Made by a program: the position numbers and the translations under genes
Shown here: one piece after another, positions 31,515 to 51,536 of the stretch
Position numbering within the stretch: position 1 is the stretch's first letter
Layout of the letters: each line of letters begins with the position of its first letter
Assembly (NCBI RefSeq): GCF_007830255.1
Contig: NZ_VLKG01000015.1
Coordinates: 1 to 64,000 of the forward strand
Direction: 5' to 3'
Origin: Azomonas agilis
Lineage (GTDB): Bacteria > Pseudomonadota > Gammaproteobacteria > Pseudomonadales > Pseudomonadaceae
Length of the DNA stretch: 64,000 bases
The notes under the pieces: generated by a model
Told to the model about the DNA's origin: nothing
What the model saw: only the letters and a program-made list of their open reading frames with translations
Database searches by the model: none

Positions 31515-31748
31515 TTAGGGTGCTGAATCTACCCACTCGTAAATCACTAACGTCGCTGGATTGCAGCTACAACAGGGTTTATTACAACTTGTACCCTCTG
31601 GAAGCTTGCGGGCTCTGCCTTTACGCTCCAGATGCTGCAACATGGGCTCAACGGCTTCGGGCGTGCTGTTCAGCGCATGGGCAAGATCCACTAAACTGGC
31701 TCGGCCTTGTTGACGTAAGGTCTCATTCAGCGCTGAAAGCATGCTCAT
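31515..31748 (-). CDS. feoC: FeoC-like regulatory protein of the Feo iron transporter
   Basis: A 77-residue winged-helix protein. The N-terminal helix-turn-helix (LSALNETLRQQGRASLVDLAHAL) and a C-terminal cysteine group C-N-K-P-C-C-S-C fit FeoC, which is thought to modulate FeoB stability or sense iron/oxygen through an Fe-S cluster. Its ATG shares a base with the feoB stop (TAATG), a tight coupling typical of feoABC. It is the last gene of the operon. Confidence 0.88.
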   Translation of the reverse strand: MSMLSALNETLRQQGRASLVDLAHALNSTPEAVEPMLQHLERKGRARKLPEGTSCNKPCCSCNPATLVIYEWVDSAP

Positions 31749-34054
31749 TAGATTTCCCCTTTCACTTTATTGAAGCTCAAAATATTTTGAGCTTCCCGAT
31801 GCCCTGCAAACCAAAGCATAACAAAGGCTAATACAAAGCCCGCTGACATGCCTAACGTCCACAACAGTGAGCTAAAGGGATGCTTGGCCCAGGTAGCGAT
31901 CTGATAAAAGAGTGTTGCCAAGCCATAAGCCACCCCAGTGGTCCAAGCAGCCACAAAAGCAGTCCAACGTCCACCGGCTTCCTGATAGATAGCCGCAGTA
32001 GCTGCGGTACAGGGAAAGTAAAGCAAGATAAACAGCAGATAAGCAAAGGCCCCCGCCATACCGTCAAAACGCTCTACCATCGCCCCGAAGGTGCCTGAAG
32101 TCACTTCATCGCCTAGGGTTTCCGACTGATCATCGGTAAGTCCTAGGGGATCAGCCCAATGCCCTAAAGCATCCACTAAATTCGCAGGAATCGTAGCAAA
32201 AGCCTCCGCTAAGGCAGCACCTAACGCAAAAGGTGTTTCCTCTGACGCATTGCCAGTCTCTTGAGCTGCCATAGCACCGTAGGTAGCACTCAGGGTTCCC
32301 ACTACTACCTCTTTAGCCAAGATGCCGGTAAAGATACCCACCGCTGCGGGCCAATTTTCAGCATCTAAGCCAAAAGGAGAAAACGCTGGGGCCAGTACTC
32401 GCCCCGTTGCTGCTAATACGGAGCTTTCGGTATCTTCATGACCAAAGGTGCCGTCCGTTCCAATGGAGCCTAATACGTTCAGCACCAATACCATCGGCAC
32501 AATGACGCGCCCTGCACGGAAGATGAACCCCTTCAGGCGCGACCACGTATGGATCAATACCCCTTTCAAGGTCGGGAGGTGATAAGGCGGTAACTCCATG
32601 ATGAACGGAGTGGCATCACCCTCTAACAGCGTCTGCTTCAGCACCAGACCGGTCAGAATGGCGATCAGAATACCGATCAGATACAGACCGAAAATGATGT
32701 TTTGCCCACTCTCAGGGAAAAACGCGGCCACAAAGAGCACATAAACCGGCAGACGTGCACCGCAGGACATAAAGGGGGTCATGGCAATCGTCATTAAACG
32801 ATCGCGCCGATGCTCTAAAGTTCGGGTTGCCATAACTGCTGGGACGTTACATCCAAAGCCCACAATCAGCGGTACAAAGGATTTCCCCGGCAAACCGACC
32901 CAGCGCATAAAACGATCCATCACAAAGGCAGCTCGGGCCATATAACCCGAGTCCTCTAGCATGGACAAAAATAAATACAAAAAGCCAATTACAGGAACAA
33001 AGGTCAAAATAACCTGAATACCACCGCCAATGCCCTGTGCCAGCAAAGCGGTTAGCCAATCGGGAGCACCTAACCCCGTCAGTAACTCACCAAAACCATC
33101 TACTAATAAAGCAGCTGCGGCTAGATCAAAAAAGTCGATAAATGCCCCACCAATATTGATGGTGAACATAAACATTAGGTACATCATTAAGAAGAAAATC
33201 GGGATACCCAATATCCGATTGAGAACTACACGATCCAGTAAATCAGAAATGTCCCGAGTCACACGCCCTGAGTGAGTTACCGTAGCACCCGCCATACGGT
33301 TGGCAAAGCCGTAACGGGCATCGGCCACCATAATATCCAAGTCATCGCCTAATTCGGCTTTTAGCTTAATGGCTAAGTCTTGAGCCTCTGCGCTGGCAAC
33401 TGTACGGGCCAGATCATCCCCCTCCAGTAAACGCACCGCTAACCAGCGTGAGGAGAGTTTTTCGGTGGGAAGTTTGGGCGCTAATTGGGTGACAGCTTGT
33501 TCTAATGAGTCTTCGTAGGTAATGGTCAAGCTGGAACGTACAGGCTGTTCTAAGGCTTGTTGAATAAAACCTTTTAGATCCTCTATCCCTTTACCTACCG
33601 ATGCCACGATCGGAACCACCGGACAGCCCAACTGGGCCGACAACTGAGCAGGCTCGACCTTCATGCCTTTGGCATCGGCCACGTCCACCATATTCATTAC
33701 GACTAGTAGAGGTACCTGCATTTCACACAACTGGGTGGTCAAATACAGGTTACGTTCTAGGTTAGCTGCGTCTACGATGTTGACGATAAGGTCTGCTTCA
33801 TTTTCGTGCACATAGTCGCGGGCGACTCGCTCATCCAAAGAGACCTCATGCTCCACCACATCTAATGAATAGGTGCCGGGTAGATCAATAACTTCGACTA
33901 AAACATCACCCCGGTGGTATTCGCCACTTTTGCGCTCTACGGTTACGCCGGGCCAATTACCTACTTGCTGTTTTGAACCGGTCAGCGCATTAAAAAGGGT
34001 GGTTTTTCCACAGTTCGGATTGCCTACAAGCCCTATAGTATAACGCCGTGTCAT
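31748..34054 (-). CDS. feoB: Ferrous iron transport protein B
   Basis: A 768-residue inner-membrane Fe(II) transporter. The N-terminal GTPase has G1 GNPNCGKTT (residues 11-19), G3 D-L-P-G-T-Y-S-L and G4 N-M-V-D. A helical linker and then two Gate/core membrane domains follow, with the conserved G-C-N-V-P region (VGFGCNVPAVMATRTLE). Full length, no frameshift. It shares single bases with feoA and feoC at its two ends, so translation of all three is coupled. It would feed Fe(II) to the iron-storage genes upstream in the same run. Confidence 0.97.
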   Translation of the reverse strand: MTRRYTIGLVGNPNCGKTTLFNALTGSKQQVGNWPGVTVERKSGEYHRGDVLVEVIDLPGTYSLDVVEHEVSLDERVARDYVHENEADLIVNIVDAANLERNLYLTTQLCEMQVPLLVVMNMVDVADAKGMKVEPAQLSAQLGCPVVPIVASVGKGIEDLKGFIQQALEQPVRSSLTITYEDSLEQAVTQLAPKLPTEKLSSRWLAVRLLEGDDLARTVASAEAQDLAIKLKAELGDDLDIMVADARYGFANRMAGATVTHSGRVTRDISDLLDRVVLNRILGIPIFFLMMYLMFMFTINIGGAFIDFFDLAAAALLVDGFGELLTGLGAPDWLTALLAQGIGGGIQVILTFVPVIGFLYLFLSMLEDSGYMARAAFVMDRFMRWVGLPGKSFVPLIVGFGCNVPAVMATRTLEHRRDRLMTIAMTPFMSCGARLPVYVLFVAAFFPESGQNIIFGLYLIGILIAILTGLVLKQTLLEGDATPFIMELPPYHLPTLKGVLIHTWSRLKGFIFRAGRVIVPMVLVLNVLGSIGTDGTFGHEDTESSVLAATGRVLAPAFSPFGLDAENWPAAVGIFTGILAKEVVVGTLSATYGAMAAQETGNASEETPFALGAALAEAFATIPANLVDALGHWADPLGLTDDQSETLGDEVTSGTFGAMVERFDGMAGAFAYLLFILLYFPCTAATAAIYQEAGGRWTAFVAAWTTGVAYGLATLFYQIATWAKHPFSSLLWTLGMSAGFVLAFVMLWFAGHREAQNILSFNKVKGEI

Positions 34055-34278
34055 TACAGCCGCTCCACTGTCAAGGCCTCAGCCTCTGCCTTGCGTAACG
34101 AAAGCGCAAAGCCACGCACTTTAATTTCAATCGGATCTCCCATAGGGGCGACACGGGTTACACTCAGCTCAACACCCGGGGTTAATCCCATAGACAGAAG
34201 TTTGCGCCGGTAAGCACTACTGCCCTCACTAAAACCGACAACCCGGGCACGATCACCCACCGACAGGTTTTTCAACAT
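34054..34278 (-). CDS. feoA: Ferrous iron transport protein A
   Basis: A 74-residue SH3-like cytoplasmic partner of FeoB. It has G-D-R-A-R-V-V-G-F and L-S-M-G-L-T-P-G-V-E-L, then I-E-I-K-V-R-G-F-A-L-S-L-R-K-A-E-A. GAGGA precedes the ATG. It lies directly before feoB and shares its last base with the feoB start. Confidence 0.95.
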   Translation of the reverse strand: MLKNLSVGDRARVVGFSEGSSAYRRKLLSMGLTPGVELSVTRVAPMGDPIEIKVRGFALSLRKAEAEALTVERL

Positions 34279-34328: not shown

Positions 34329-34577
34329 TCACACTGGACAAACCAGAATCTTACTTGCCATACCAAAACCTAGGGCAAAACGGGTTTCTCCCCGCGAAAT
34401 CACCAGCCCACCGGCTCCTTGGCGCTGGCGAACCCAGATTTCACTACCCACATTGAGACCCATTTCAGTCAGGCGTTTGGTTAAACTAGCACCTCCCTGT
34501 AGGGAAATGATACGCACTGCGGTATCTTCGCTAGCCATAGCTAGGGGAAAACCCGACGTCTGGGATGTCGTGCTCAT
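34329..34577 (-). CDS. feoA: Second FeoA-domain protein
   Basis: An 82-residue FeoA-like protein (ATG at 34577, preceded by GAGG). It has LQGGASLTKRLTEMGLNVGSEIWVRQRQGAGGLVISRGETRFALGFGMA, the same fold signature as the 74-residue FeoA next door but with low identity. The frame continues upstream to 34685, but that part runs into the ATPase gene and adds nothing family-like, so I exclude it. Two FeoA proteins before one FeoB is not rare, but here one of them sits between the P-type ATPase and the feo genes. It may serve the neighbouring metal ATPase system rather than FeoB; that is inference. Confidence 0.88.
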   Translation of the reverse strand: MSTTSQTSGFPLAMASEDTAVRIISLQGGASLTKRLTEMGLNVGSEIWVRQRQGAGGLVISRGETRFALGFGMASKILVCPV

Positions 34578-34596
34578 GTAGTGGAACCTCACAGTT

Positions 34597-36711
34597 CTAA
34601 TGGGCGATTTCTTTAGTCTTTCTGGAGTACCGAGGCAATCCGGCTCCCACCAAAGCCCTAAGTAGGATGGCAATGGTGGTTCCATTATGCAGCATAGAGG
34701 CGGAAACGGGTTTTAATAATCCGAAAGCAGCCGCTGTTAATATGCTGGTATTCAATCCCAGAGTCAGATTGAAATTGGTGTTTATCAAACGCTGAGTCGA
34801 TAAAGCCAAGGCTCTGGCCTCAGCCACCAAAGAAAGATCATCTTCCAGCAGGGTGACATCCGAAGCCAGACGCGCAATATCTGCCCCATTATGCATGGAG
34901 ATGCCCACTTGAGCACCTGAAAGGGCCGGTGCATCATTAACGCCATCGCCGATAAAAGCAATCTGTGCCCCCTGAGCGGCAAGTTCTTGTAACACACCGG
35001 CCTTTTCATGGGGCAACAAACCGGCTTTGAAATCATCCAAGCCCAAATCCTCGGCTAGGGCTTTAGCCCGCTCGGGATGATCGCCCGTCAACATGATGAG
35101 GCGCTTAACGCCCAAGGTGCGTAAACGCTTCAGAGTTGCCGCTGCATTGGGACGCTGGGTGTCTTTTAGAGCCAATACACCAATCAGTTCGCCACCAAAG
35201 CCGATGTACAGCAGCGTTTTCCCTTCCTGATTTAGCCGATTAATCACTTCAGCATGGGCTTTAGTGGAGATGCCTTCATCATCCTCAATAAAATGCCGTG
35301 AGCCCACCAAAATACGCTGACCATCAATGACGCTGGCCACACCGTGGGCAACAATGAACTCCACCTCTTTGTGATTGAAATGTTGATGATGCTTAAGCTG
35401 TCTCGCCGCCTCCACCACAGCCAACGCGAGCGGATGAAAATAATGTTCCTCCACAGAAGCAGCCAGATTGATCAAATCTTCTGAGCTGTAGCGGGTGGAA
35501 AAGGTGATGGAGTCCGTGACCTGCAACAAGCCGCTGGTTAAGGTGCCGGTCTTATCGAACACAAAGGTATCAGCGGCGGCTAAACGCTCTAAAGCCGTTG
35601 CGCTCTTAACCAGAATACCCGCCTGTCCTCCCTGATACATGGCAGATTTGAAGGCTACCGGCGTAGCCAACTTCAGCGCACAGGAATAATCCGCTTGCAA
35701 TACCGCGCTGGTTCGCTCCCAGTCTCGGGAGAATAACCAAGTCACTCCGGCTAATCCCAGCACCATAGGCACTAAACGGTCAGCTAACTGAGCAGCCTGA
35801 AGTTGCGTAGTGCTTTTAGCATCCAGCGATTGCTCGACGAAATCGGCAATTCGAGCCGCCGCTGCGTGGCTCCCCACTTGCTCGGCATAAATCCGAATAC
35901 GTCCTTCCTCGACTAAGGTTCCCGCCAAGACACGGTTTTTGCGGCGGCGAACAACAGGCACACTTTCGCCGGTCATGGTCGCTTCATTGACCAAAGCCTC
36001 ACCGCCCAAAACCGTGCCATCCACGGGGATTACTTTTCCCGTCGATGCAATAACGATATCACCTACTTGAAGATCGCGAGCTTCTACAGTCACCTCTTGG
36101 CCATCGCGCTCAACCCAAACCTCTCCGGTATCGGGGCGCAGCAGTTGCTTGAGCAAATTATCCGAACGTCGCTCAATGGAATGCTCCAAATACTCGCCCA
36201 AGGCCAGTAAAAACGAGGTGGTATTCGCCGCTAGAAAGTCTTTACGTCCGATAGAGATAGCAACGGCCAAAGCCTCTAACACATGGGAGGTAATGCCTTT
36301 ATTGATGAAGTTTTCCGTTGCCTCACTAAACAGCGGTATCGCGGTTAGCAGCGCTAAGGGTGCGCGTAAAGAAGGTTGAATACTACGGGTAGCTAAAAGT
36401 GTCGCTGCACTTAAAGCCACTCCACCCAACAAAGCATCCTCCGTTTCTGCCTTAGGCGCATGCTGGGTACGAACAGGTGGCTTAAGTGCCAAAATGGCAG
36501 CGCCCAGTTGTTCTACTGTGGTTTGCTCAGGCTCAAACTCAACAACCAGCATATGGATGGCCGAGTTCACCCGTACCGAACGAACACCCTTTAAAGCACC
36601 AATCGCCTGTTGAATAGCCACCGCCGTCCGAGGAGCACCACATTGATAGCTGTAACGGATGCGCTGGCCGGTAGCGTGTTTTCGCTCAAGTCGGGAGAAC
36701 CAGACCGCCAT
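34597..36711 (-). CDS. fezB: P1B-type metal-transporting ATPase, FezB-like (possible P1B-6)
   Basis: A 704-residue heavy-metal ATPase. A degenerate N-terminal HMA-like domain (about 15-75) has GVRSVRVN but no CxxC. Then come membrane helices, the actuator loop T-M-T-G-E-S, the phosphorylated D386 in DKTGT, T-G-D-H-P and GDGVNDAP. The metal-site helix reads Y342-S-C344-A-L-K-L-A-T-P rather than the usual C-P-C. As I remember it, an S-C-A motif marks the P1B-6 group, whose members (FezB) are needed for ferrosome iron granules; this and the neighbours are why I suggest fezB. The start is ATG 36711 (GGAGG nine bases away); the frame's TTG at 36717 is too close to it. Confidence 0.75.
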   Translation of the reverse strand: MAVWFSRLERKHATGQRIRYSYQCGAPRTAVAIQQAIGALKGVRSVRVNSAIHMLVVEFEPEQTTVEQLGAAILALKPPVRTQHAPKAETEDALLGGVALSAATLLATRSIQPSLRAPLALLTAIPLFSEATENFINKGITSHVLEALAVAISIGRKDFLAANTTSFLLALGEYLEHSIERRSDNLLKQLLRPDTGEVWVERDGQEVTVEARDLQVGDIVIASTGKVIPVDGTVLGGEALVNEATMTGESVPVVRRRKNRVLAGTLVEEGRIRIYAEQVGSHAAAARIADFVEQSLDAKSTTQLQAAQLADRLVPMVLGLAGVTWLFSRDWERTSAVLQADYSCALKLATPVAFKSAMYQGGQAGILVKSATALERLAAADTFVFDKTGTLTSGLLQVTDSITFSTRYSSEDLINLAASVEEHYFHPLALAVVEAARQLKHHQHFNHKEVEFIVAHGVASVIDGQRILVGSRHFIEDDEGISTKAHAEVINRLNQEGKTLLYIGFGGELIGVLALKDTQRPNAAATLKRLRTLGVKRLIMLTGDHPERAKALAEDLGLDDFKAGLLPHEKAGVLQELAAQGAQIAFIGDGVNDAPALSGAQVGISMHNGADIARLASDVTLLEDDLSLVAEARALALSTQRLINTNFNLTLGLNTSILTAAAFGLLKPVSASMLHNGTTIAILLRALVGAGLPRYSRKTKEIAH

Positions 36712-36713
36712 AA

Positions 36714-37247
36714 TCAAATACCTCCGTTCTGCTCGGCATCCAATTCGGCACGAACGTCAGCCACTTGCTCCTTTAACTCTTCTAAGCCACCCATCAGGCC
36801 CGAATAAAGCTTTAAGCCTGTTTTTAATAACTTATTGCGCAACTCTTCATCGGTTAAAACCCAAGCAGCGGCACCACCAATCACCAAGCCCAGTAAGAAT
36901 TGCTCGGTATGTCGAGACCGCAGTAGATTTGGCAATCCCTGTAGTAGGCCTGCATCCAAACCCGCTGCATTCAAGTAAGCGGCCGTAGGATCAGGATTTT
37001 GCGCCCCACCTAATCCAGCGTTTAGGCCAGCCATACCCGGCTGATTAAAAGCAGGGCCTGCTCCAGCAGGCGCACCGGCATAGCCGTAGCCTGTTGCAGC
37101 CGGATTTGGAGTCGCCATACTGGGCTGTTGGGATGCAGCTAAGTCTGCTGGTGGATAACCATAGGCTGTATAGGGAGTACCGGCAGGGATTCCCTGTCCC
37201 ATGTACGCAGCGGCGGGGGGCGGGTTCTTTTTACGCTTCTTGGCCAT
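36714..37247 (-). CDS. Small membrane protein with a Pro/Ala/Gly/Tyr-rich N-terminus, iron-locus
   Basis: A 177-residue protein of unknown function. Residues 1-105 are a low-complexity run rich in Pro, Ala, Gly and Tyr (YGYAGAPAGAGP and similar). Then comes one membrane segment (FLLGLVIGGAAAWVL, about 117-132) and an amphipathic, acidic C-terminus (EELKEQVADVRAELDAEQ) like YtxH-type proteins. It ends two bases before the start of the ATPase gene and overlaps the previous gene by 17 bp. A membrane-shaping or scaffold role in an iron compartment is a guess from context. Confidence 0.7.
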   Translation of the reverse strand: MAKKRKKNPPPAAAYMGQGIPAGTPYTAYGYPPADLAASQQPSMATPNPAATGYGYAGAPAGAGPAFNQPGMAGLNAGLGGAQNPDPTAAYLNAAGLDAGLLQGLPNLLRSRHTEQFLLGLVIGGAAAWVLTDEELRNKLLKTGLKLYSGLMGGLEELKEQVADVRAELDAEQNGGI

Positions 37248-37575
37248 TGATCAACTCCGGAGCAGAGGTAGAAGATTCCTGTAATAAACGCTCGACGGCC
37301 AATACACTAGCCGCGCCTAACGCGGTAGCCAGTACTGCGCCCAAGTAGTTGCCTTGCTTCACGGCAATGGCTGCATGAGTACCGGCTGCTAGAGCAGCAC
37401 CACCTTGTAAGGCATGGCGTAACACACGTTTAAATTGCTTGGGTGAGCTAGGCACCCTCTGCTCTTGAAAGGCCGATAAACAAGCAGTAGCGATAAAGCC
37501 ACGCGTAAAGCTGCCATCGCTCTCAAGGCCTTGGACTTTAGAACGCGCAGGATAGGCAGAGTTTGGAACATACAT
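37231..37575 (-). CDS. Small hydrophobic protein, iron-locus, unknown
   Basis: A 114-residue protein with two Ala/Gly-rich hydrophobic segments (about 56-72 and 77-93) and no recognised domain. AAGGAG precedes the ATG. It starts five bases after the upstream gene and overlaps the next by 17 bp, so it belongs to the operon. Function is unknown. Confidence 0.65.
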   Translation of the reverse strand: MYVPNSAYPARSKVQGLESDGSFTRGFIATACLSAFQEQRVPSSPKQFKRVLRHALQGGAALAAGTHAAIAVKQGNYLGAVLATALGAASVLAVERLLQESSTSAPELINGQEA

Positions 37576-37580
37576 CGCTT

Positions 37581-37871
37581 TTACTCCTTAGTCTTAGGCT
37601 CAGCAGTGGGCGGTATCAGCGCTGGCTGAACCGAAGCGGGTACGGCCAAATCCTTTTCCATAGGCTCACCAGCATCTATGACGGGATCTGGCTCTAAGCG
37701 AGCCCTTATTTTATCGGACACCTTAGACACACCCTCTAAACCAGAGCGTGTAGCCTCCCGTAACTGATCTTGAACCTTATCTAAAGCCTCTTGAGAGGTT
37801 TTAGTTTTAAACAAACGCACAGCCACAACACCCGTTGCAATACCTAAAACAAAAGGGATAAGCGGTAACAT
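37581..37871 (-). CDS. Single-span membrane protein, iron-locus, YtxH-like
   Basis: A 96-residue protein: one N-terminal membrane helix (PLIPFVLGIATGVVAVRLF), then an amphipathic charged helix (about 25-62) and a Pro/Glu-rich tail. It resembles small YtxH-type stress or organelle membrane proteins but is too short to assign. AGGAG lies before the ATG. It is one base from the ferritin-like gene. Confidence 0.65.
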   Translation of the reverse strand: MLPLIPFVLGIATGVVAVRLFKTKTSQEALDKVQDQLREATRSGLEGVSKVSDKIRARLEPDPVIDAGEPMEKDLAVPASVQPALIPPTAEPKTKE

Positions 37872-37872
37872 G

Positions 37873-38568
37873 TTACGACTCCTTCCGGCCTAACCCGGTT
37901 TTTTTCTTGAGCAGATAGACACCAGCTCCGCCTACTACCAGTCCACTCAATAGAGCGGGATGGCTATTGCGCAACAAGGGACTGACCAAACCCAATACCC
38001 CGCCTCGTCCAACCATCTGGGCCAAAGCGCGCTCCAATAAATCAGAAAAAGGCCCATGCTTTACATAGGCTTGCTGAGGCGGAATTCCCATAGCCGCATG
38101 GTAACGCTCCTGCTCTAAAGCACTGAGGGCCGCTTCGCGAAATGCAGGTAAATGCTGCTCATACGAGGCCGCCTGCAAATTCAGAAAAACCTGCCGAACA
38201 TCTGGCTCTGCTACTGTTGTCAATAACTGCCCATACAGACGTATATTAGCTATCTCACCGGCTATAGCCCTATTACAGTTCGCTAGCCATGTGGGCTCAA
38301 GGGTAGTTTCTGCGGGAAAAGGATCTAAAGGACGTGCAATCCCTAACCGCGTACAGAGATTAGACAAAGCCTCTATATGGCGCTCTTCTGAAGCCAATAT
38401 GTTAGAAAAAGGAGCACGAGCACCAAACCCCTCCACTACCCGAGCATAAAAACTACGCGCAGCATACTCATCAAACAGAGCAATACGCACCGCTTGATGT
38501 ACGAGCGGATAAGGAGCTTGCGGGTTTAGCATCCGGCTTCGCAAAATTTGTTCATCATAATTTTGCAT
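37873..38568 (-). CDS. Membrane-anchored ferritin-like protein
   Basis: A 231-residue protein whose first 150 residues are a ferritin-like four-helix domain. Likely metal ligands, counted from the ATG 38568, are E34, E61-x-x-H64, E105, E137 and H139. A hydrophobic segment near the C-terminus (about 205-222, SGLVVGGAGVYLLKKKTG) should anchor it in the membrane. The ATG 38568 is six bases from GGAGG; a TTG two codons earlier is less likely. Iron oxidation or binding at a membrane compartment would fit the P-type ATPase and Feo genes beside it. DUF2202-like ferritins are the nearest group I can name; that is tentative. Confidence 0.78.
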   Translation of the reverse strand: MQNYDEQILRSRMLNPQAPYPLVHQAVRIALFDEYAARSFYARVVEGFGARAPFSNILASEERHIEALSNLCTRLGIARPLDPFPAETTLEPTWLANCNRAIAGEIANIRLYGQLLTTVAEPDVRQVFLNLQAASYEQHLPAFREAALSALEQERYHAAMGIPPQQAYVKHGPFSDLLERALAQMVGRGGVLGLVSPLLRNSHPALLSGLVVGGAGVYLLKKKTGLGRKES

Positions 38569-38929
38569 GTACAACCTCCTGATAGCTGTCGTACAAATGA
38601 GTTATTAGAAGCTGAGCTGCTGTAGAGTCCTTACTAGCCAATAAATCCCCCCATGCCTCAGAAGGAATTATCTTAGGGTCGTACTCCAGTACGCAGGATC
38701 GCGCTAAGGGATTTACCCGTACAGAACGCACTCCAAGGGTGCGCTCTAATAACTGCGTCAACAGATTAATGCACTCTAGCCACTCATCGGAGGATAAGCC
38801 CGCTAATGAAAGAGTGGTATCCAGTTTTAAACGAACCCTACCCGGCACTTGATGAGCAATCCGCACGGCAGCCAAGCCTGCCTGCCATTGTCCGCTCTGC
38901 CAAAGCGCTAGGAGTCTGCTATCTAGCAT
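38555..38929 (-). CDS. HMA-like domain protein, first gene of the iron operon
   Basis: A 124-residue protein whose central part (about 25-90) matches the degenerate heavy-metal-associated domain V-P-G-R-V-R-L-K-L ... G-V-R-S-V-R-V-N-P ... Y-D. It has no CxxC pair, so it may bind metal differently or be structural. The N-terminus of the ATPase in the same operon carries a similar domain. The gene overlaps the ferritin-like gene by 14 bp. GGAGGGGGA sits just before the ATG. Upstream there is no further gene on this strand for ~480 bp, so this is the likely head of the operon. Confidence 0.75.
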   Translation of the reverse strand: MLDSRLLALWQSGQWQAGLAAVRIAHQVPGRVRLKLDTTLSLAGLSSDEWLECINLLTQLLERTLGVRSVRVNPLARSCVLEYDPKIIPSEAWGDLLASKDSTAAQLLITHLYDSYQEVVHAKL

Positions 38930-39739: not shown

Positions 39740-40591
39740 TTAGTCAAATACAACCGTTTTATTGCTATGCACCAGTACCCTATCTTCCAAGTGATAACGC
39801 ACCCCGCGCGATAAAACCATTTTTTCCACATCCTTACCTAAGCGCACCATGTCTTCAACACTATCACGATGACTAATACGCACTACATCCTGTTCAATAA
39901 TGGGGCCTGCATCAAGCTCCTCGGTAACATAGTGACAAGTTGCTCCGATCAACTTAACACCCCGCTGAGCTGCTTGATGGTAGGGTTTAGCACCCACAAA
40001 GGAGGGTAAGAAACTATGATGTATATTGAGAATACGCTCGGCAAACTCCTGACATAAAGCCGAAGGTAGAATCTGCATATAACGCGCCAATACAATGCAG
40101 TCTGCATCATGCTCACGCACCAACTGAGTCACGCGGTTAAATGCATCCTCTTTACACCCAGCCACGACAGGAACATAGAAATAAGGAATGCCATGCCAAG
40201 CCACCATACTGTGCAAATCATCGTGATTGGAAATAACACAGGGAATATCGCAATCTAACTCTCCACTGTGCCAACGGTGCAATAAGTCGGCTAAACAATG
40301 GGATTCTCGGCTGGCCATCAAAATTAATTTTTTGCGCTGAGCCGAATCGGAAACCCACCATTGCATAGAAAACTCTCGAGCAATGGGAGAAAAGGCTTGC
40401 TTAAACCCCTCTAAATCGAAGGGTAATGAATCTGCCCGAATTTCGTGGCGCATAAAAAACCAGCCACTTTGAGTATCTGAATGGTGGCTTGCTTCGGTAA
40501 TCCAACCATTGTAAGTGGCTAAGAAATTGCTCACCTTAGCCACAATACCTACTCGGTCAGGGCAGGCAATAATCAGCCTGAAAGTACGCAT
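39740..40591 (-). CDS. purU: Formyltetrahydrofolate deformylase
   Basis: A 283-residue enzyme that hydrolyses 10-formyl-THF to THF and formate, balancing one-carbon pools. An N-terminal ACT regulatory domain (about 1-85) is followed by a formyltransferase fold with the catalytic triad N189, H191 (in LNIHHSFLPSF) and D227 (in EELDAGPIIEQD). GAGGT lies nine bases before the ATG. The gene is single, convergent with the small charged-protein gene. Confidence 0.95.
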   Translation of the reverse strand: MRTFRLIIACPDRVGIVAKVSNFLATYNGWITEASHHSDTQSGWFFMRHEIRADSLPFDLEGFKQAFSPIAREFSMQWWVSDSAQRKKLILMASRESHCLADLLHRWHSGELDCDIPCVISNHDDLHSMVAWHGIPYFYVPVVAGCKEDAFNRVTQLVREHDADCIVLARYMQILPSALCQEFAERILNIHHSFLPSFVGAKPYHQAAQRGVKLIGATCHYVTEELDAGPIIEQDVVRISHRDSVEDMVRLGKDVEKMVLSRGVRYHLEDRVLVHSNKTVVFD

Positions 40592-40877
40592 TTAATAGAA
40601 ACCTCACCCATAAAAATGCCCCATTCTAGCGCACTCTCACAGATAAGGCATTTGTAGCCTAGAACTGCGTTAGAAAAACTGCTTTCACCCATTAGAGGGT
40701 ATATAAAGCTCAGGCTTAGGCATTACAAATATCCAAGATTTTTGGTTATTAGATAAAGAAATCTCTGGCAACTTCTTAACCAAGAACTTTATATAGCTCC
40801 AACATTTACTTATTCTGTAGACCTATTTATTATCGTAGCTGGCCTAGCGGCCCCTTTAAAAACACAGGTGATTAATT

Positions 40878-41258
40878 ATGTCTATTGTTAATGAATACCG
40901 CTCAACAGAAGAAGAAATCAAAAAACTTCAAGAGCGCCTGAAGCAATTATCCCAAGATAGCAAGCTGCAACAAGAGCTTGAGTTTGAAGATAAACTACGC
41001 ACCCTAATGGGCGAGTATCAAAAATCGCTGCGTGACATCATTGCCTTGCTAGACCCTGATTCTCGTCTAAACAAACAACCTGCTGTTGCTAAAGTAGTTA
41101 CCACTACAAAACGAGCACGCCGCGTTAAACAGTACAAAAATCCACACACCGGTGAAGTGATTGAAACTAAAGGGGGCAACCACAAAACCCTCAAAGAGTG
41201 GAAAGCAACTTGGGGTGCCGATACTGTTGAAGGTTGGGCTGCGGTACTCGAAGCTTAA
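40878..41258 (+). CDS. mvaT: MvaT-family nucleoid-associated (H-NS-like) protein
   Basis: A 126-residue silencer of AT-rich DNA. The N-terminal coiled coil (about 5-60, EEEIKKLQERLKQLSQD) mediates oligomerisation. The C-terminal DNA-binding part has KQYKNPHTGEVIETKGGNHK and LKEWK. MvaT/MvaU proteins are characteristic of Pseudomonas and replace classical H-NS there, so this is a strong lineage marker. AGGTGA precedes the ATG. Likely targets include the AT-rich polysaccharide genes in this window, which is inference. The 286 bp upstream are AT-rich with no gene. Confidence 0.95.
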   Translation: MSIVNEYRSTEEEIKKLQERLKQLSQDSKLQQELEFEDKLRTLMGEYQKSLRDIIALLDPDSRLNKQPAVAKVVTTTKRARRVKQYKNPHTGEVIETKGGNHKTLKEWKATWGADTVEGWAAVLEA

Positions 41259-51156: not shown

Positions 51157-51536
51157 GGGGCCGATTAGGATTCGACGCCGGTAACAAAACTTGAGGGGCG
51201 TGCCGAGTGGGTAACAGAACTCGTAAATCCACTGTTGCAAACTTATAGTTGCCAACGACGACAACTTCGAAGGATACGCGCTAGCCGCCTAACCTTCACT
51301 CTGGTCGCTTCGGCGCCAGCGGTCACTAGGGGATGCCTGTAAACCCGAAATGACCGTCAGATAGAACAGGATCGTCGCCAAGTTCGCTGTAGACGTAACG
51401 ACTAAAACTTATACAGCTCGCCCTGAGCACCCTGCCCGTCGGGCGGCAACGGGTTAACGTAGTAGACTGGGATACGCATGTAGAACCGATAGCGGAGAGC
51501 TGGCGGACGGGGGTTCAAATCCCCCCGGCTCCACCA
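51157..51536 (+). ncRNA. ssrA: Transfer-messenger RNA
   Basis: A 380-nt tmRNA. The 5' end GGGGCCGA pairs (one G-U) with the 3' CGGCTCC just before ACCA; the T-arm GGGTTCAAATCCC is at the 3' end. The encoded tag starts at GCC (51251) and ends at TAA (51290-51292): A-N-D-D-N-F-E-G-Y-A-L-A-A, thirteen residues. The usual Pseudomonas tag, as I recall it, is A-N-D-D-N-Y-A-L-A-A, so three residues are inserted or changed. The ALAA end, recognised by ClpXP, is kept. Together with SmpB it frees stalled ribosomes. Its 3' end is a common integration site. Confidence 0.97.

Follow-up and report, generated by a model that had tools for sequence, protein, structure and literature searches.

Does a run of ten genes in Azomonas agilis specify a ferrosome, and if so, what is a ferritin-like protein doing among them? 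The run lies in the window, by which is meant the whole stretch of 64,000 nucleotides that was analysed (contig 15 of a 3.28 Mb genome), and its genes are tightly spaced on the minus strand from 38929 to 31515, according to the list of open reading frames (ORFs). Going by its sequence, it is likely to be a fez-type (ferrosome) operon of the six-gene kind known from proteobacteria; this variant includes a gene for a membrane-anchored ferritin-like protein and runs on into feoA-feoA-feoB-feoC. A preliminary description of this DNA had proposed a fez cluster, and homology bears this out, as five of six window genes stand in the same order in Rhodopseudomonas sp. BR0M22 and the P1B ATPase has the SCA motif. 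The fez-type reading follows because the order is common to Rhodopseudomonas, where six fez genes enable R. palustris CGA009 to form ferrosomes (PMC12016538).

Gene order and its conservation

The order is HMA-like protein, ferritin-like protein, three small membrane proteins, P1B ATPase, FeoA, FeoA, FeoB and FeoC; the ORF list, Pfam and NCBIfam agree that every gene described earlier is present, on one strand and in the order given. From first to last the genes are:

38555..38929, minus strand: HMA-like protein, 124 amino acids, without CxxC and with an H-x3-G-R-x-R motif, the operon's first gene (HMA_2, E=1.5e-4, below the Pfam cut-off)
37873..38568, minus strand: ferritin-like (DUF2202-related) protein, 231 amino acids, with a C-terminal Gly-rich anchor helix and a basic tail (DUF2202, E=0.0037, below cut-off; bundle in the structural model)
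37581..37871, minus strand: small YtxH-like membrane protein (ytxh), 96 amino acids (YtxH, E=0.0045, below cut-off)
37231..37575, minus strand: small Gly/Ala-rich membrane protein (sm), 114 amino acids, of no known family (no notable Pfam match, no NCBIfam match)
36714..37247, minus strand: KK-rich protein (pagy), 177 amino acids, with a variable Pro/Ala/Gly/Tyr tract and a conserved C-terminal YtxH/DUF5132-like helix (by alignment)
34597..36711, minus strand: FezB-like P1B ATPase, with YSCALKLATP in transmembrane helix 4 (TM4) and an N-terminal HMA-like domain without CxxC (ATPase-IB_hvy, 467.8 bits, cut-off 346)
34329..34577, minus strand: FeoA-like protein, directly 3' of the ATPase gene (FeoA, E=2.8e-14)
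34054..34278, minus strand: FeoA (FeoA, E=5.8e-22)
31748..34054, minus strand: FeoB ferrous iron permease (FeoB_N, E=1.7e-63; NF007105, 849.9 bits, cut-off 683)
31515..31748, minus strand: FeoC (FeoC, E=3.1e-19)

Three starts differ from those of the ORF list and were judged by in-frame ATG codons and by relatives. The ferritin-like ORF is listed as 37873-38574 and the ATPase ORF as 34597-36717, and the ATGs at 38568 and 36711 are the better starts; the FeoA-like ORF is listed as 34329-34685, and its start was moved to the ATG at 34577 because the listed one falls within the ATPase gene. Rubrerythrin was also a weak, below-cut-off Pfam match of the ferritin-like protein.

Up to and including the ATPase gene, adjacent genes share at most 17 bases or have a gap of at most 5 bases, and 19 bases separate the ATPase gene from that of the FeoA-like protein. 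The terminator scan found no minus-strand terminator-like site in this last gap, in a scan that was itself uninformative (15 terminator-like sites vs 10.5 in shuffles); the promoter-like sites (3 vs 8.7 in shuffles, every one on the plus strand) were equally so. The ten genes would be read as one transcript. They had earlier been described as a cluster 'fused to feoABC', and the feo genes are indeed adjacent and co-directional; there is no gene fusion, and feoA, feoB and feoC (31515-34278) lie beyond the interval 34329-38929 that was given for the cluster.

Relatives were taken as the best 80 (loci L049-L128) of at least 575 confirmed relatives (at least 595 pattern matches). Because these were ranked by the likeness of their TM4 region to that of the window, the shares of loci given below hold for near relatives only. 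Together with three further relatives, the G714 locus and the window they make 85 rows, in which L013 duplicates L054; distinct loci with at least 3 kb upstream number 73, window included. When the ORFs of the 85 loci were searched with iterated profiles, the conserved order was hma-[ferritin]-ytxh-sm-pagy-ATPase, with hma present in 71 of the 73 distinct loci, ytxh in 72, sm in 66, pagy in all 73 and the ferritin-like gene in 25. Among the genera with such a cluster are Azotobacter, Thauera, Azoarcus, Ectothiorhodospira, Aeromonas, Magnetospirillum, Azospirillum, Rhodoblastus and Rhodopseudomonas. As the order recurs in dozens of other genomes, the gene run is not a product of chance. Such a cluster had been thought notable in a Pseudomonas-like genome, which has to be qualified: Azotobacter, another genus of its family, carries the cluster as well.

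Genome searches gave a picture of how common the ATPase type is. At E<=1e-150, 36 other genomes from the genus, family and order yielded three close relatives, and among 369 class genomes at E<=1e-120 the ATPase was found in the window's own genome only, a threshold too strict for distant members. The DNA pattern for S-C-A-L-K-x-x-T-P matched 22 of 398 Pseudomonadota genomes; by translation and BLAST, three of these hold true ATPases (the window's own genome, G714 and G623) and the others, G710 included, are chance matches. The G714 and G623 ATPases are 39-40% identical. With the exact motif pattern in 3 of the 398 genomes sampled, own genome included, the type is therefore uncommon.

The ATPase, its small partners and feo

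The YSCALKLATP motif and the missing CxxC were both as first described. At the TM4 motif, SCALK is present in 74 of the 85 rows and ACALK in the other 11 (one duplicate row). The SCA motif reportedly marks the P1B-6 group, according to Smith in 2014. In a quick tree, the 84 fez-type rows split from four paralogues of the same genome with a support of 99, on long outgroup branches; three of these four carry the CPC motif. The window ATPase groups with those of its genus relatives, and stands in one group with the ATPase of the Rhodopseudomonas cluster, which has SCALK as well. The assignment as a FezB-type ATPase, P1B-6 by motif, is thus supported on sequence grounds, with the four paralogues as the only outgroup of the tree. 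The best general models are heavy-metal ATPases, and the solved structures most closely related in sequence, which are those of copper, cadmium and zinc pumps, point to the wider family only. Fe(II) is the substrate given for P1B-6 in Table 4 of PMC7558416, and by analogy, from this class and from fez genetics elsewhere, the ATPase would be an Fe(II) pump.

The serine-less ACALK rows are L077, L078, L100, L102, L104, L105, L107, L111, L112, L122 and L128, and several of the carriers are Azoarcus metagenome genomes.

CxxC is absent both from the 124-amino-acid HMA-like protein and from the N-terminus of the ATPase. In the former, H26, G30, R31 and R33 are invariant in 32 of 32 rows (alignment A8). 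A cysteine metal site in the HMA-like proteins is therefore unlikely, the conserved element being H-x3-G-R-x-R, and this basic patch may instead meet phosphate or partner proteins. The AlphaFold2 (AF2) model of the protein has a predicted local distance difference test score (pLDDT) of 87.7, and its Foldseek matches were weak, the best being a copper HMA domain at E 0.015.

A second protein of this kind, HMA-TM, consists of an HMA-like domain with a C-terminal membrane helix and carries a similar P-G-R-x-R. Its gene is near the cluster in 62 of the 85 loci (L048 to L127, two partial), sometimes on the opposite strand beyond feoC. Replacement of HMA-TM by the ferritin-like gene was considered and rejected as a general rule: 13 of the 23 ferritin-bearing loci (both flanks) have HMA-TM within about 9 kb.

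The long Pro/Ala/Gly/Tyr tract noted in pagy is present in the window; it is the variable part of the protein, short or absent in many of 20 rows. At E<=0.01, 13 of the 20 members of the pagy alignment match DUF5132 and 9 match YtxH, and the window row matches neither.

In 15 of 65 loci feoB comes immediately after the ATPase gene; the trait requires eight changes on the tree, so the link to feo is loose and labile. An association of the ferritin-like gene with an adjoining downstream feoB looks strong by Fisher test (11/23 vs 4/42, p=0.0013) but loses its support when kinship is taken into account (4 independent pairs, median p=1).

The ferritin-like protein in two phyla

The AF2 model of the ferritin-like protein has four long helices in a ferritin-type four-helix bundle, with a pLDDT of at least 90 for 151 of 231 residues and below 50 for the last 47, anchor helix included. 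Its structural matches in the PDB are bacterioferritins, Dps-like proteins and MJ0754, at Z 16-17, and it superposes on MJ0754 (PDB 3q4n, 3q4r) with a root mean square deviation of 1.9 over 131 residues. MJ0754 is a DUF2202 protein. Against the DUF2202 model (PF09968) the window protein scores 17.5 bits, below the curated cut-off of 22; the best member of its alignment reaches E=1.7e-6, and 13 of the 22 members match at E<=0.1.

Five residues, E34, E61, H64, E105 and H139, fall at what we take to be bacterioferritin-type ligand positions by alignment. By alignment, then, the window protein retains five of six ligand-type positions and has Y136 at the sixth, with E137 adjoining. All five residues are present in 12 of 22 relatives (alignment A4), and a Thauera protein keeps them all. 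E154, H157, H171 and E179 are invariant in all 22; they lie at the end of helix four and beyond, and mark a C-terminal module. Besides the window's own genome, a profile of the ferritin-like protein matched solitary DUF2202-like genes in 5 of the 398 phylum genomes, without fez neighbours in the stretch examined (one near a contig end), and the three such proteins with readable ends stop after the bundle, without the module.

The genome encodes three ordinary PF00210 ferritins at other sites, so the operon's ferritin-like protein is an extra. At G000:C10:64060-66184 in this genome, an ordinary ferritin (PF00210) gene stands beside that of a CPC-type ATPase, on the opposite strand. The ferritin-like gene had been singled out as a notable addition to the cluster; it is unusual, and yet it recurs in 25 of the 73 distinct loci and in another phylum. 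Placed on the quick ATPase tree, the ferritin label requires seven changes, at least five by starred branches, and the gene has accordingly been gained or lost repeatedly. In Candidatus Dactylopiibacterium carminicum (L057:6371-7072) it is split over two frames and looks broken.

The other phylum was reached through plasmids. Plasmid searches returned 14 records with the ferritin-like protein and 2193 with the ATPase helix region, nearly all of the latter below 60% identity and including many other P1B ATPases. Among the matches listed, two Arcobacter plasmids from chicken meat are common to both searches, 57% identical in the ATPase region, and carry a complete ferritin-bearing fez-type operon: L137:4537-8605 (CP134847.1 70536-74604) and L140:1413-5482 (CP129951.1 128912-132981). 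Arcobacter belongs to the Campylobacterota, a phylum other than that of the window. Homology was tested gene by gene for L137, in which the order is hma (2.4e-19), DUF2202 protein (1.3e-31), ytxh (3.2e-7), sm (8.9e-11), pagy (1.7e-17), a separate HMA-like ORF (4.2e-9) and a SCALK ATPase (5.6e-254), the values being profile E-values from a search of eight proteins. The annotation of L140 has, in the same order, a hypothetical protein, DUF2202, two hypotheticals, a YtxH protein and one full-length P-type ATPase. Being near copies, the two plasmids are counted as a single case. Next to the L137 operon are TonB receptors together with a ChaN lipoprotein.

The Arcobacter protein keeps the five ligand-type residues, by reading of the alignment, and has its own Gly-rich C-terminal helix; the C-terminal module gave no match in it at E<=10. 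The partnership of ferritin-like protein and fez-type genes thus spans phyla and the four-residue module does not. Most likely the ferritin-like protein is located on the ferrosome membrane and deals with iron next to FezB. Ferrosomes may also be built with the ferritin-like protein as a structural or docking scaffold that oxidises no iron, a sub-case compatible with the ferrosome reading and one that we take seriously while not favouring it. It would account for the five ligand-type residues being complete in 12 of the 22 proteins only, as opposed to the E154, H157, H171 and E179 found in all of them, whereas the window and Arcobacter proteins do keep the five residues, and in Arcobacter it is the C-terminal module with the other four that is missing.

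Iron handling and known systems

For the operon as a whole, a putative route for iron can be drawn. P1B pumps as a rule move metal out of the cytosol. FeoB, from what is known of its family, would bring Fe(II) into the cytosol and FezB would pass it from there into the lumen of a vesicle, which the three small Gly-rich membrane proteins and the HMA-like protein may shape and crowd. The ferritin-like protein, held on the vesicle membrane by its C-terminal helix, would bind iron and probably oxidise it or hand it over beside FezB; where its ligand-type residues have decayed, it may have turned structural. Its ferritin-like domain would be on the cytosolic face, as is the domain of other C-tail-anchored proteins that lack a signal peptide, although the charge of the basic tail would favour the opposite facing.

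Several points weigh against a ferrosome with a working ferritin-like protein. Ten of the 22 ferritin-like relatives have lost at least one ligand-type residue, and this loss argues against ferroxidase activity in them; they comprise the two Azotobacter rows, three Aromatoleum/Azoarcus rows and five from other genera or families. The link to the six-gene operon of CGA009 (RPA2333-2338) goes through the genus and the number of genes, with BR0M22 and Azospirillum brasilense as the sequences compared. DUF4405-type FezC has no match at E<=1 among the ten window proteins; as DUF4405 is also without a match at E<=0.1 among the six ORFs of the BR0M22 cluster, FezC looks like a trait of another fez type. 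HMA-TM was not found in the window's own genome by a profile that detected the G019 copy at 3.1e-51 and also missed the divergent G714 copy. Upstream of the operon there are no Fur or FNR boxes above chance in the window, the best Fur match being 12/19. Among relatives, Fur matches of at least 13/19 (7 of 71 loci vs 1.7 expected) and FNR matches of at least 9/10 (7 of 71 vs 0.6 expected) are leads only. Fur control has been reported for the fez genes of C. difficile (PMC12574912).

Finally, the genes could look much the same if the cluster served a P1B efflux pump in the cell membrane. The ATPase would then export Fe(II) to the periplasm, Feo would import it and the ferritin-like protein would buffer it, in a plasma-membrane balance that needs no organelle. 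P1B ATPases are exporters as a class, the P1B-5 protein Nia has been tied to Ni and Fe export (PMC4932525), and feo is directly downstream of the ATPase gene. In a simple pump, however, an HMA-like protein and three small Gly-rich membrane proteins that are conserved together would have no obvious role, and R. palustris forms ferrosomes with a set of genes alike in size and kind (PMC12016538), so that we regard such a balance as improbable. An ordinary ATPase for Cu, Zn or Cd resistance, flanked by hypothetical genes, for which the heavy-metal general models and solved relatives speak, is dismissed as extremely unlikely, since CPC and CxxC are absent, the neighbours are iron genes and the ATPase falls apart from its genome's own CPC ATPases in the tree (if on long branches); motif and context speak against Cu or Zn resistance.

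The ferrosome reading can be taken a step further, tentatively and with some doubt, to a hybrid store: a ferrosome membrane with its own ferritin-like oxidase, C-terminally anchored beside FezB and sometimes co-made with FeoB, so that import, oxidation and storage would form one membrane-bound line. If this is true, these bacteria would combine storage in ferritin and storage in lipid-bounded ferrosomes within a single machine, the two being no longer alternatives, and with the added ferritin part ferrosomes may be able to work in oxygen-exposed cells. For the missing chemistry by which ferrosomes load, oxidise and release iron, a ferritin-like protein that accompanies fez-type genes in two phyla offers a named candidate. 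Operons that include it occur in the culturable Azotobacter vinelandii and in Thauera species, which makes the proposal directly testable. In the literature searched, which excluded the founding papers (Grant 2022, Pi 2023), no description of the ferritin-bearing, feo-linked form was found, and nothing on Azotobacter together with ferrosomes.

Elsewhere in the window, a formyltetrahydrofolate deformylase-like gene and a small H-NS/MvaT-like gene, both named by eye, lie upstream of the operon (39740-41258), and a transfer-messenger RNA gene is present at 51157-51536, with the tag ANDDNFEGYALAA.

Among known systems, six-gene fez operons are said, in Grant's work of 2022, to be used by both R. 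palustris and S. putrefaciens. The BR0M22 cluster (L108) consists of six genes that all point the same way: HMA-TM, hma, ytxh, sm, pagy and ATPase. With this cluster and that of Azospirillum brasilense (L138) the window has in common hma, ytxh-like, sm, the KK/YtxH-like gene and the SCALK-type ATPase, in the same order and on the same strand; the A. brasilense plasmid is annotated with an HMA2 domain protein, a cation transporter, two hypotheticals, a YtxH protein and a P-type ATPase. Unlike the Rhodopseudomonas set, the window has the ferritin-like second gene and feo downstream, and HMA-TM was not found in it. Desulfovibrio magneticus (FezB, FezC) and Clostridioides difficile (FezA, FezB) resemble the window, by description, in combining a P1B ATPase with membrane partners (PMC12574912 and PMC11334425).

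Azotobacter vinelandii CA (L055) shares with the window the order hma-ferritin-ytxh-sm-pagy-ATPase-feoA-feoB-feoC, but differs in having HMA-TM on the opposite strand beyond feoC, an upstream Fur-like box matching 15/19, and Gly instead of E61 in its ferritin-like protein. DUF2202 proteins such as MJ0754 have the same four-helix bundle, to which the window protein adds the C-terminal module and the anchor helix. Bacterioferritins and ferritins are likewise of the same fold (Z about 16-17), and from these the window protein is set apart by an identity of 8-19%, by the anchor helix and by one helix-4 ligand position that is not Glu.

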